Assembly (NCBI GenBank): GCA_946894095.1
Contig: OX335643.1
Span: 12,263,036-12,327,035, forward strand
Direction: 5' to 3'
DNA: 64,000 nucleotides
Source: Incurvaria masculella
Taxonomy: Eukaryota; Arthropoda; Insecta; Lepidoptera; Incurvariidae
The notes below the pieces were generated by a model. That model saw nothing but the letters and a program-made list of their open reading frames with translations. It was not told where the DNA came from and made no database searches. The translations under genes were made by a program, and so were the position numbers. Position 1 is the stretch's first letter. Each line of letters starts with the position of its first letter. Below are positions 5,624 to 29,713 of this stretch, piece after piece.

Positions 5624-6158
5624 TTAAGGTGGCCCAACCGGGCCTAACTCATTCGCGGGCACAGTACAAAACCGTGCTGTTGCGCTCTGAGACCTTCTCT
5701 GTTTCAAAGAATAATACAGGCTCCGTGATGAGGAAGATGCAATATGTCCGCAAAAAAGAAAATGTGCACAGTGTATGATTTGGTAAGATTTACGAAAATT
5801 TGAATTTCAAAACGACTTATAGCTAAAAGTAAACCACGACCGCTCTATTCAAAAACCAAATAGATTATAAATCTTGATTAAATAAGCTATGTCTGATGAC
5901 TAATATTTTTAAGATGTTTTTACTTTATCATTGCGTAATCTACCTCCAAAGTTATTGTATAAAACGCGCGAAAAATCCGAACTTTCGGACCTTATAACTT
6001 AGAAACCAAACACAATTTTACAATGCCAACGGTCATCAGACATCTAGTTCGATCAAATAAAGCTATTTTGAGCAAAATTTGGGATCTCTGACAAGTAATA
6101 TGTGCGTGATCTTCTTTCCCCGTTTGTATGGGGAGTTGAGCGGGATGGGCCACCTTAA
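5624..6158 (-). mobile_element. TTAA-1 element, copy 2
   Basis: The element 5628-6154 is bounded by TTAA at 5624-5627 and 6155-6158, in the opposite orientation to copy 1 and similar throughout (GCGCGAAAAATCCGAAC core). It ends 171 bp before the first Akt exon of the window. Non-coding. Confidence 0.8.
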
Positions 6159-6329: not shown

Positions 6330-6527
6330 ACGCTGGAGAAGTTCGAGTTCGTCAAGGTGCTCGGCAAGGGCACCTTCGGCAAGGTGGTGCTCAGCCGCGA
6401 GAAGGACTCCGGCAAGCTGTACGCCATGAAGATCCTCAAGAAGAACGTCATCATACAGAAGGACGAAGTGGCGCACACCATCACCGAGAACCGGGTGCTC
6501 AAGTCGACCAACCACCCGTTCTTGACG
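6330..6527 (+). CDS. Akt: Akt kinase, exon with glycine-rich loop, lysine and helix C ('exon 3')
   Basis: A 66-codon phase-0 exon of RAC/PKB serine/threonine kinase. It begins [20 protein letters not shown], giving the GxGxFG nucleotide loop (exon residues 12-17), then YAMKILKK with the catalytic ATP-anchoring lysine, then helix C with [14 protein letters not shown] (partner glutamate), and stops at NHPFLT. The acceptor is CCCCGCAG ending at 6329 and the donor GT is at 6528. Upstream in-frame codons do not resemble Akt, so the acceptor sets the start. Akt acts downstream of PI3K/PDK1/TORC2 in insulin and growth signalling. The PH domain that would precede this exon is not in the window. GC content is sharply higher than the surrounding intron. 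Exon numbers are local labels. Confidence 0.95.
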
Positions 6528-8049: not shown

Positions 8050-10868
8050 ACATCCGTGCTTGCAAAAGGTCCAATCGTTCTGAATTTTTTATACGTTGTT
8101 GGGACCTAAGCCAAGAGTAAGAAACTAGATATGCAATTTCCAAAAACCTGTGCGACCGGTTTTATAGCCGAAAAACCTCGAAATTTTAACACTTATCAGT
8201 TTTTGCTCAATATCTTAGTGAAAGAAGGGTCTGACCAGTATAGTCACTTAATACACTTTTAGCTAGACTAAACGTGCTACAATTCAAGACCAAAGTGAGC
8301 TCTGTACAATTATTAGTTCCCGAGATACACCTCTTCGAAAGTTGAATTTTTTTTACAAAAGTGAGTTTTTTTCCAAGTGGTCACTTATATTGTGAAATAT
8401 ATTCTAAGATACGCATCCTATGTCAATTATTATGTGAAGTATATTCATAGCACATTTAATAAGCTTTCATATAAGACCAGATGGATACTTGTAGGCCTAG
8501 CGGTTCTCTCAAAACCGGCAGATAACAAAAAACAGTCATAAGTGGGTTTTAGGGCAAATGCAAATAAACTGTTCTCACATCTTATTGTTTTTATCAAATT
8601 ATTGAACAAAAAGTTTTTTTCAAAATTTAGTCAGTCAGTCAGCGTGTTTGCGTCCACTGCTGGACATACGCCTCTCCAATTTTTTCCAGTCCTCCCGGCC
8701 CTCAGCGGTACGGAACCACTGCTTTCCGCCGACGCAATTGATGTCGTTGTCCCACCTGGCAGGTGGTCTTCCCACACTCCGTTTTCCTGTCCACGGCCAC
8801 CAGTGTAGGACACGGTTTCTCCAACGGTCGTCGTCTCTTCGGCTGACGTGGCCAGCCCACTGCCACTTGAGCTTAACCAACCGGTGTCCAATATCGACTA
8901 ATCTGGTACGTCGGCGGATTGCCTCGTTACGCACCATATCCCGTAGCGATATTCCCATCATGACTCGCTCCATTGTTCGCTGGGTAACTTTCAACTTGTG
9001 AACAACGGCGCCCGTCAGAGTCAACGTTTCACACCCGTACGTCATAACCAGGAGGACGCACTGGCACGACTATTCAAAAAGTGAAGTAACAAAATGTATC
9101 GGGAATTATGTCATAATCAAATATTGTTATATATACACTTGTACCTCCAATAAGGATTTATTCATTTACATTACAAAAATTAACACTGATATAACTCGTG
9201 TTTTGTGTTTTGGTTGCCAAATAATGCTTTTTTTATCTCGGAATCCCCGGGCTTGGGGTCGCACAAAGATGTGGCTGTGATGGACGCAGGAGAGGCGCCC
9301 ATTTTATTGTCGGGTCATCTTCATCGTCCAAGCATTCGGAGGTAGCACCTTGCTGCATAGGTGACCTGAAGCATCCTCAGTCGGCGTCAAACGGCAAACG
9401 AGCGAGATTAAAGCTCACTGAATTGCCAAACAATCTTCCAGGAATTCCATAGTATCCCTTTGAGGCTCTATATAACCTGAAAGCACTTTATGCTTGTATC
9501 TCTCACGGCTTGTGAGGAGGAGTCTGGCCGAAGGAAGACCTCCAATTGCTCACAAAGTGATTGACTCTTTGGCAGCATCTTCTGGGTAGCCGTCGAAAAC
9601 GATGGAAGCGTTATTCCCAAACTGGTTACGTACGTACATATGTAGCATAGGGCGGCATAACTGCTCAAACTGAGCTTTTTCGCTGTCACACGACCTTGTA
9701 CAAGAGGCGCCACTATCCAAAACGACGTGCGTGTCGGCATCTATAGGCGTGTAACTAGAAAGAAGAGTGAAGGAAGGGTAAAGAGTGAATTGTTCCATAA
9801 ACAAGTTCAAGGAACATGTACACCTTGCTTGTAATGTTCTTTGAACAAGACATCGGTAACGGGGCTACTTGAAGTGATCCTGTAGATCCTTTTCAGATTT
9901 TACCCTTGCCCTTCTGGGAAAAAAATCTTGTAAATGCAGGTGCTCTGGGAGCTGCTCGTGCAGAAAGGCTGGGCTCCACTTCTCATTCCACTGCCAGTCA
10001 TGCGATGCCAAATCGCGCTGGATGTGGAGCTGTAATGCTCGGTCGTTGAAGGTGACCCGACGACAGACTGGGCGCCTTTCCCTGCGTCTATCACAGCCAC
10101 ATCTTTGTGCAACCCCTCGAGCTTGGGCATTCCAAAATAAAAACAATCATGATCTGCAGCTTTCAAAACACAAGACATGAGTTATATAATTTTGATTTTT
10201 TGGAATATAAATTATTATGTACATGATGTATGTACAAGCATTACTATATGTATATATAACAATATTTGATGATGATGATGACATAATTCCCAGTAAATTG
10301 TTTTTCTTCACTTTTTGAAAAAAAAAAAAACTTTTTGTTTAATGATTTGATAAAAACAAAAAGATGTGGGAACAGTTTATTTGCATTTCCCCTAAAACCC
10401 ACTTATCACAGTTATCTGCCGGTTTTGAGAGAACCGTTTGGTCTACAAGTATCCATTTGATCATAAATGAAAGCTTATTAAATGTACTATAAACACAGTT
10501 CACACAATATTTCAAAATGTTTTTCGAAGTGGTCATTACTTCGAAAAAATAACACTTTTTGGGAAAAAATGCCTATTTTCGAAGAGGTGTATCTCAGGAA
10601 CCAATAATTGTACATTCGCTCACGTTGGTCTTGAATTGTAGCACATTTAGTCTAGTTAATAGTGTATTTAGTAACTATTCTCGTCAGACCTCTCTTCACT
10701 AAGATATTGAGCAAAAACTGAAAAAAGTGCTAAAATTTTGAGTTTTTTTGGCTATAAAACCGGTCGCACAGGTTTTTGGAAATTGAAAATCTAGTTTCTT
10801 ACTCTTGGCTTAGATCCCAACAACGTATAAAAAATTCAGAACGATTGGACCTTTTGCGAGCACGACCC
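8050..10868. mobile_element. Large element with about 0.8-kb inverted arms, interrupted by an RTE-like insertion
   Basis: The left arm (8050 to about 8625, resuming about 9072-9315) is the diverged reverse complement of the right arm (about 10040-10868). Matching words include 'tgcaaaaggtccaatcgttc', 'accggttttatagcc', 'aagatattgagcaaaaactg' and 'cacaaagatgtggctgtgat'. Very long inverted termini point to a foldback-type or long-TIR DNA transposon. The centre (9316-10039) holds degraded minus-strand coding-like sequence, including a VFDGYPED motif at about 9590-9620. The superfamily could not be named. Confidence 0.7.
8626..9071 (-). mobile_element. RTE-like LINE, 5'-truncated 3' end
   Basis: The minus-strand ORF 9045-8635 carries a non-LTR reverse transcriptase C-terminal region: MTYGCETLTLT, then KLKVTQRTMERVM, RDMVRNEAIRRRTRL, KWQWAGHVSRR, GRPPARWDNDI, ending near the EDWKKLERRM segment. 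This is the typical tail of RTE-type elements in arthropods. The 3' end terminates in (TGAC)n, seen as GTCAGTCAGTCAG at 8629-8641. It is inserted in the left arm of the 8.05-10.87 kb element, with TTCAAAA on both sides as a probable target duplication. Related 3' ends occur at 11608, 38125 and 58135. Confidence 0.75.
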
Positions 10869-12101: not shown

Positions 12102-12269
12102 TCCCTGCGCTACTCTTTCCAAACCAACGAGCGGATCTTTTTCGTGATGGAGTACGTCAACGGTGGGGACCTCTATTTCCACATGAAAAACTGCCGCTCG
12201 TTCCCCGAGGAGTCCGTCCGCTTTTACGGCGCGGAGATCGTCTCCGGACTGGGATACCTGCACTCGGAG
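12102..12269 (+). CDS. Akt: Akt alternative exon 4a (divergent hinge / helix D version)
   Basis: A 56-codon phase-0 exon running from [14 protein letters not shown] through [33 protein letters not shown] and SGLGYLHSE. The acceptor is GTTGCTTTCAG ending at 12101 and the donor is GTTGGT from 12270. It aligns without gaps to the next exon (41 of 56 residues identical) and to the hinge-to-helix E segment of Akt kinases. Differences cluster in the segment after the hinge: [18 protein letters not shown] here against [18 protein letters not shown] in 4b. Gatekeeper Met and hinge Glu-Tyr are retained. Third positions have diverged widely from 4b while the reading frame is clean, so this is an old, constrained duplicate rather than a recent copy or assembly error. 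Confidence 0.9.
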
Positions 12270-12297
12270 GTTGGTGGACCCGCCATATTGGTTCCAG
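12270..12297 (+). promoter_or_regulatory. 28-bp spacer between alternative exons 4a and 4b
   Basis: The spacer starts with a GT donor (GTTGGT) and ends with TTCCAG, so both exons have splice signals, but 28 nt is below the workable size of a spliceosomal intron. The branch point and most of the polypyrimidine tract for 4b would have to lie within exon 4a. Reading through the spacer (28 is not a multiple of 3) puts 4b out of frame. The geometry therefore favours using one exon or the other. Confidence 0.8.
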
Positions 12298-12465
12298 TCG
12301 CTCCGCTACTCGTTCCAAACGGCCGACCGCGTCTGCTTCGTGATGGAGTACGTGAACGGGGGCGAGCTGTTCTTCCACCTGCGGCGGGAGCGCTATTTCA
12401 CCGAGGAGAGGACCCGCTTCTACGGGGCCGAGATCGTCTCCGCGCTGGGGTACCTTCATTCGGAG
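12298..12465 (+). CDS. Akt: Akt alternative exon 4b (canonical hinge / helix D version)
   Basis: A 56-codon phase-0 exon: [56 protein letters not shown]. The acceptor TTCCAG ends at 12297 and the strong donor is GTCAGT from 12466. This version is closest to the ordinary Akt sequence: gatekeeper Met, hinge MEY, and GGEL with the glutamate that in AGC kinases contacts the ATP ribose and the substrate P-3 arginine. It joins in frame to NHPFLT upstream and [11 protein letters not shown] downstream. Exactly the same length as 4a (168 nt). Probably the default isoform. Confidence 0.95.
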
Positions 12466-14570: not shown

Positions 14571-15295
<725 letters not shown>

Positions 15296-22255: not shown

Positions 22256-22456
22256 GTGCTAGAGGACACCGACTACGGGCCGGCCGTGGACTGGTGGGGC
22301 GTCGGCGTCGTCATGTACGAGATGGTCTGCGGCCGCCTGCCGTTCTACAACCGCGACCACGACCAGCTCTTCAACCTGATCGTGCACGAGGAGGTGCGCT
22401 TCCCGCGGATACTGTCCGTGCCGGTCCGCTCGCTGCTCGCCAACCTGCTGACCAAG
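22256..22456 (+). CDS. Akt: Akt exon 6: helix F to helix H
   Basis: A 67-codon phase-0 exon: [67 protein letters not shown]. It contains the invariant DWWGxGVxMYEM segment (helix F Asp) and CGRLPFYN, both strongly Akt-like. The acceptor is CTTGCAG ending at 22255 and the donor is GTGAGT from 22457. It joins APE of exon 5 to VLED here exactly as in the family. A SINE-A copy begins only about 20 bp into the downstream intron. Confidence 0.95.
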
Positions 22457-28254: not shown

Positions 28255-28419
<165 letters not shown>

Positions 28420-29494: not shown

Positions 29495-29713
29495 ATCCCG
29501 CCGCCGTTCAAGCCGCAAGTGAGCTCCGAGACGGACACGCGCTACTTCGATTCGGAGTTCACGGGCGAGAGCGTGGAGCTGACGCCCCCGGAGCAGGGCG
29601 GAGCCCTCGCGAACATCCAGGAGGAGTCTTTCCCGCAGTTCTCCTACCAGGACATCTGCTCGTCGACCATCAGTAGCGGAACGCATCTCTCCGCTCACTC
29701 CATGCACAACTAG
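29495..29713 (+). CDS. Akt: Akt final exon: C-terminal tail and stop
   Basis: 72 codons plus TAG. It starts [20 protein letters not shown], the AGC C-terminal tail with PPFKP and DTRYFD, then a TPPE turn motif (Thr450-type site), then FPQFSY, the hydrophobic motif whose Ser is the TORC2 site (Ser473 of human AKT1), and ends [16 protein letters not shown]. The extension after FPQFSY is longer than in vertebrate Akt. The acceptor is CTCCGCAG ending at 29494. Turn and hydrophobic motifs are intact, so the product should be regulated conventionally. Confidence 0.95.

Follow-up and report, generated by a model that had tools for sequence, protein, structure and literature searches.

Insulin signalling centres on the kinase Akt, whose gene in the moth Incurvaria masculella raises the question of whether a single locus supplies one such kinase or two. 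We analyzed a stretch of 64,000 nucleotides that covers part of this gene (hereafter, the window) and that sits in a 27-Mb contig, C3, of a 552-Mb genome in 31 contigs. An earlier note, made from the letters of the window, had pointed to two adjacent exons of equal length, here named 4a and 4b. We consider it likely that they form a mutually exclusive pair of kinase exons, the splicing being predicted from the genomic DNA, and the gene would then probably make two slightly different Akt kinases.

The Akt locus and its paired exons

A PH domain, an AGC kinase domain and a C-terminal tail in one gene identify it as Akt/PKB, the kinase and C-terminal domains being recognized by Pfam. Exons for the PH domain and the linker precede the window, on the same strand; the exons within the window are listed in Table 1. 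In a search of the species' own genome with the kinase domain (140 matches; 150 of 265 candidates scored), all matches of at least 72% came from the locus of the window and the others reached at most 63%, so we see one Akt locus in this genome. Two uninterrupted, divergently oriented kinase frames, which share 42% and 41% identity with the Akt kinase domain, are located about 2.8 kb apart on another contig (C10:20068130-20068825, minus strand, and C10:20071645-20072343, plus strand).

Table 1. Features of the Akt gene. Positions refer to the window unless a contig (C3) or locus (L040) is named.
Feature	Position	Strand	Basis and remarks
PH exon	C3:12255215-12255439		AG/GT borders
PH-exon copy	C3:12255480-12255622 and 12255676-12255698 (L040:2381-2523 and 2577-2599)		upstream of the window
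Akt exon 3: glycine loop, catalytic Lys, helix C; upstream partner of 4a/4b	6330..6527	+	translation TLEKFEF...HPFLT; AG before, gtacac after; 99% to the query in own-genome search
Exon 4a, predicted alternative kinase cassette: strands 4-5, hinge, helix D, helix E start	12102..12269	+	open frame, borders, selection
Spacer with 4a donor and 4b acceptor	12270..12297	+	28 nt, below removable intron size; length, sequence, branch-point scan
Exon 4b, canonical Akt cassette	12298..12465	+	4b type in 25/25 lepidopteran cluster representatives
Akt exon 5: YRD, DFG, activation loop, APE; downstream partner of 4a/4b	14847..14999	+	homology, AG/GT borders
Akt exon 6	22256..22456	+	homology, AG/GT borders
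Akt exon 7	28306..28407	+	homology, AG/GT borders
Akt exon 8: C-terminal tail and stop at 29713	29495..29713	+	homology, AG/GT borders

Exons 4a and 4b adjoin, are 168 nt long each, begin in phase 0, and have open frames and AG/GT borders, with acceptors ttgctttcag|TCC (4a) and ttggttccag|TCG (4b) and donors GAG|gttggt (4a) and GAG|gtcagt (4b). Thus, the coordinates, equal length, phase, frames and borders given in the earlier note were all confirmed on the sequence, and so was its count of 41 identical residues among 56. At the nucleotide level the exons agree in 124 of 168 positions (a 26% difference), namely in 47, 46 and 31 of the 56 first, second and third codon positions. Chance similarity was excluded by a self-comparison of the DNA, in which the pair scores E 8.5e-26. 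As expected of a mutually exclusive pair, 4a and 4b are adjacent homologous exons that encode the same protein segment and can replace each other in frame. They probably arose by tandem duplication of Akt exon 4, an origin supported by the homology, intactness and constraint of the two copies.

A derivation of 4a from another kinase gene was rejected, as two loci that we take to be PKC-like from their sequence agree with parts of 4a at 56-61%, versus 73% for 4b. Three loci with this label score higher with 4a than with 4b (52.0 versus 49.7, 62.4 versus 55.8 and 42.4 versus 35.0 bits). This lean is weak: the PKC-like L025 ties at 48.5 bits, the other kinases L006, L007, L008 and L009 also lean to 4a, and L004, L005, L011, L012, L020, L023 and L029 lean to 4b.

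Two sets of inverted repeats were observed in the window. The intron before 4a holds nested inverted repeats (8055-10864), whose outer arms, 8055-8194 and 10725-10864, are 94% complementary and enclose at least four inner pairs; they look like a foldback or terminal-inverted-repeat element. A long pair at 11-541 and 5639-6158, 88-93% complementary and flanking about 5 kb, may represent two copies of a single mobile element.

Divergence and predicted splicing of the two exons

The Nei-Gojobori comparison of 4a with 4b yields dS 1.06 and dN 0.19, and a variant that keeps stop-containing paths yields dS 1.00, dN 0.20 and omega 0.20 (codon bootstrap 0.07-0.43). The wide silent divergence announced in the earlier note is therefore borne out, and omega is 0.18-0.20 across both estimates at dS of about 1.0. 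The GC content of third codon positions is 0.84 in 4a, 0.93 in 4b and 0.97-0.98 in exons 3, 5 and 6, whereas the two 500-nt flanks of the pair have a GC content of 0.36 and 0.38. The lower value in 4a hints at weaker constraint.

By its anatomy, the 28-nt spacer would leave no room for splicing from 4a to 4b, so the choice of exon is predicted to be either/or and a productive mRNA would read 3-4a-5 or 3-4b-5. If the spacer is retained, the joint exon measures 168+28+168 = 364 nt and shifts the frame; if both exons are skipped, 56 residues are deleted in frame. The barrier to joint inclusion is thus an anatomical one, consisting of the short spacer and the frame-shifting joint exon. Any branch point inside the spacer lies less than 28 nt from the 4a donor. 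The branch-point scan found a full match for each of 4a, exon 5 and exon 6, whereas the 4b acceptor has weak candidates only (2 of 3 matches), at 11, 20, 36 and 50 nt, of which those at 36 and 50 nt fall within 4a. We count it against exclusive use that these weak candidates precede 4b, the canonical exon, and likewise that the 4a donor is a poorer match to the usual consensus than the donor of 4b.

The same geometry permits 4a to serve mainly as an unproductive regulatory element, whose acceptor is used while the spacer is kept, so that an exon of 364 nt, not a multiple of 3, shifts the frame, the mRNA decays and the Akt level is tuned. C. elegans Akt-1 is present in an NMD table among premature-stop exons (PMC2265522). 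We regard this explanation as improbable, since an element of this kind needs no conserved protein, yet omega between the exons is about 0.2, and 4a retains a donor of its own, in phase.

Predicted effect of exon 4a on the kinase

If the exons are used as alternatives, either choice would leave the catalytic Lys, YRD, DFG and the activation loop in common, while the flank of the hinge, helix D and the start of helix E would differ. We surveyed these residues in 100 distinct exon-4 peptides from 161 of the 211 proteins described below (gapless rows only). At eight positions where 4a diverges, the 4b letter is nearly invariant, being held by 91 (D), 98 (C), 98 (E), 97 (F), 99 (L), 99 (R), 93 (T) and 100 (A) of the 100 peptides, and the 4a letters occur in 0-7 of them. 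The other seven differing positions are more variable among Akts. Position 23 of the exon, which is Asp in 4a, corresponds to Glu236 of Akt2 (Glu234 of Akt1) when counted along the alignment, and Glu236 of Akt2 forms a salt bridge with the -3 arginine of the substrate (PMC4841541). The helix-D residues next to this Asp are also changed in 4a.

The exons common to both forms keep the glycine loop, catalytic Lys, YRD, DFG and APE, and the Pfam kinase profile scores the chimera with 4a at 249 bits versus 254.6 for 4b. We infer that the 4a kinase would be altered in specificity or activity, with a changed preference for substrates or a changed level of activity. Relaxed constraint would also fit its altered near-invariant positions together with its weaker third-position GC content.

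Distribution of exon 4a

Three protein searches (85 proteins of 90 candidates; 41 of 41; the best 120 of 7425 matches, with 7980 scored) gave 211 distinct proteins. These are the listed representatives of clusters at 90% identity, where a full 4a isoform, with its 15 differences, would fall into the cluster of the 4b form. Among the matches listed at this clustering, none of the 211 proteins is more similar to 4a than to 4b, with one tie (P0083, five letters each), and no 4a orthologue was found among these representatives. The 25 lepidopteran representatives, 21 identified by name and four judged lepidopteran by similarity, are all 4b-like, although clustering at 90% may conceal isoforms; of the 24 that were included in a tree, none groups with this species. 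The 20 best matches of the 4b isoform, 18 of them named lepidopterans, share 81-87% identity with it. In one of the lepidopteran proteins, P0007 from Amyelois transitella, the lone exon-4 segment is 4b-like and yet shares IFF and RSF with 4a; of the 15 diagnostic letters, 3 are of 4a type and 10 of 4b type. The literature on insect Akt isoforms and alternative exons, judged from titles and the beginnings of abstracts, names no Akt exon pair in insects; PMC8626913, with a single occurrence of 'akt1', might do so.

In the tree of the protein without exon 4, the species of the window is sister to 24 lepidopteran sequences, with support of 100/99 for the 24 and 99/94 with the window included, in a bootstrap that is not fully settled. 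P0038 and a caddisfly fall outside this clade. By this one gene, I. masculella is an early-branching moth. Since the rest of the protein places the species outside the 24 sequences, 4a may belong to an early-branching lineage of moths. That 4a was not seen in other species could reflect either its origin on the branch of this species or a loss on that of the other lepidopterans. With dS near 1, an old origin of 4a is likely, and we would therefore expect it in relatives.

The tree of the 56 exon-4 residues cannot place 4a, because 4a sits on a long branch and all four placements (with 4b, with a nematode copy, within Lepidoptera and outside Lepidoptera) are not rejected. In this tree, which leaves 4a unplaced, P0006 pairs with 4a at 91/93. 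P0006, P0083, P0086 and P0111 are diverged Akt relatives, in which the exon-4 segment contains GGDLYFH and VRFYG as in 4a, and P0006 and P0083 also contain FPE. Their tail resembles that of fly Akt.

The PH-exon copy and the fate of unused duplicates

A comparison of nine exons against 42 kb of the locus revealed copies (E up to 1e-3) of just two of them, exon 4 and the PH exon. The copy of the PH exon lies about 40 nt downstream of it, in two blocks that are 80% and 91% identical. It lacks the first ~40 nt of the exon, and with them the start and the acceptor, and its alignment contains two single-base gaps and a 47-nt insertion, so that the frame is broken (score 178.6 versus at most 45.6 in 200 shuffles). 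Over 47 gap-free codons, dS is 0.36, dN 0.28 and omega 0.76 (0.38-1.8). This ratio and the broken structure show that an unused exon duplicate decays in this Akt gene, and the PH copy provides an example of how one looks there.

This yardstick bears on the possibility that 4a, too, is an unused duplicate, with decay still to come. Dead copies do occur in this gene, as the PH copy proves, 4a is missing from the lepidopteran representatives of 90% clusters, and it breaks near-invariant positions. Against these points, 4a has reached dS of about 1.0 without a stop, an indel or loss of a border, and the exon-4 pair is intact at nearly three times the silent divergence of the PH copy, which is already broken. 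We simulated neutral change by substitution, leaving out indels, with 20,000 runs for each setting, and scored the runs that remained free of stops and kept 41 or more identical residues. Their share was 0.0004 with half of the silent divergence assigned to 4a, and 0 with the whole of it assigned there. We thus judge it quite unlikely that 4a is unused; the low omega, the simulation and the contrast with the PH copy indicate that both exons are maintained as coding sequence. An assembly artefact, such as the juxtaposition of two haplotypes or of a misplaced paralogue, has no finding in its favour and deserves almost no credence, as the 26% coding difference far exceeds that between haplotypes, the pair lies within a 27-Mb contig, and the pair region has no match above 75% at any other genomic site.

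Comparison with known Akt genes and exon pairs

The single-version Akt of other insects resembles the gene described here in exon 4b and the other exons, and differs in that only the 4b type occurs in the 25 lepidopteran representatives of 90% clusters. The pair also resembles short-intron mutually exclusive exons, in which a donor lies too near the next branch point. In PMC5740500, interference is assigned to branch points less than 50 nt from the donor, and 57 human clusters (9%) are potential cases at <50 bp. Here the entire spacer is 28 nt and a branch point in it would be closer still.

The closest parallel comes from nematodes. Akt proteins of Caenorhabditis bovis, Auanema and Diploscapter contain two consecutive in-line copies of the same kinase segment (the full sequence was examined for C. 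bovis), and the tandem versions start at the same place as in the moth (L-x-Y-S-F-Q-T). In the second nematode copy GGD takes the place of the GGE of the first, and 4a likewise has Asp for Glu. Paradis and Ruvkun (1998) reportedly found the C. elegans akt-1 pair to be mutually exclusive within the kinase domain. With these tandem nematode segments on record, the moth pair is not the first in an Akt gene. The reading of the earlier note, a mutually exclusive pair with both exons under selection, stands as the best supported one, given omega of about 0.2, the 28-nt spacer, interchangeable phase-0 borders and the decayed PH-exon yardstick; the novelty it hinted at was too wide.

The nematode repeat differs from the moth pair in that it extends about nine residues further 3' in C. 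bovis, where the second copy also has a five-residue insert. In the 56-residue tree the nematode copies group together at 98/91, although a tree that joins 4a to the second of them is not rejected (AU p 0.48). The later 3' end in C. bovis and the grouping of the nematode copies suggest that the moth and nematode pairs probably had separate origins. PMC524168 reports probes for akt-1a and akt-1b of C. elegans, each directed at an exon that the other isoform lacks; the two change -1.8 and +1.4 fold in dauers, and the choice between 4a and 4b would probably likewise depend on stage or tissue. The isoforms of Strongyloides akt-1 named in PMC3493385 differ at the N-terminus, unlike the kinase-segment pair considered here.

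It can be speculated, tentatively, that Akt split at least twice independently, in nematodes and in an early-branching moth lineage, into two kinases per gene through the same hinge, helix-D and helix-E cassette, each time with one version that changes GGE to GGD at the reader of the -3 arginine, and that 4a has a substrate range of its own in a splice-controlled switch of insulin output. If so, a splice switch in the substrate-reading cassette would draw two outputs from one locus. Judging from the nematode pair, this cassette may be a recurrent site of Akt splitting, and matched natural cassettes that can be swapped could reveal which helix-D residues set the specificity of Akt.
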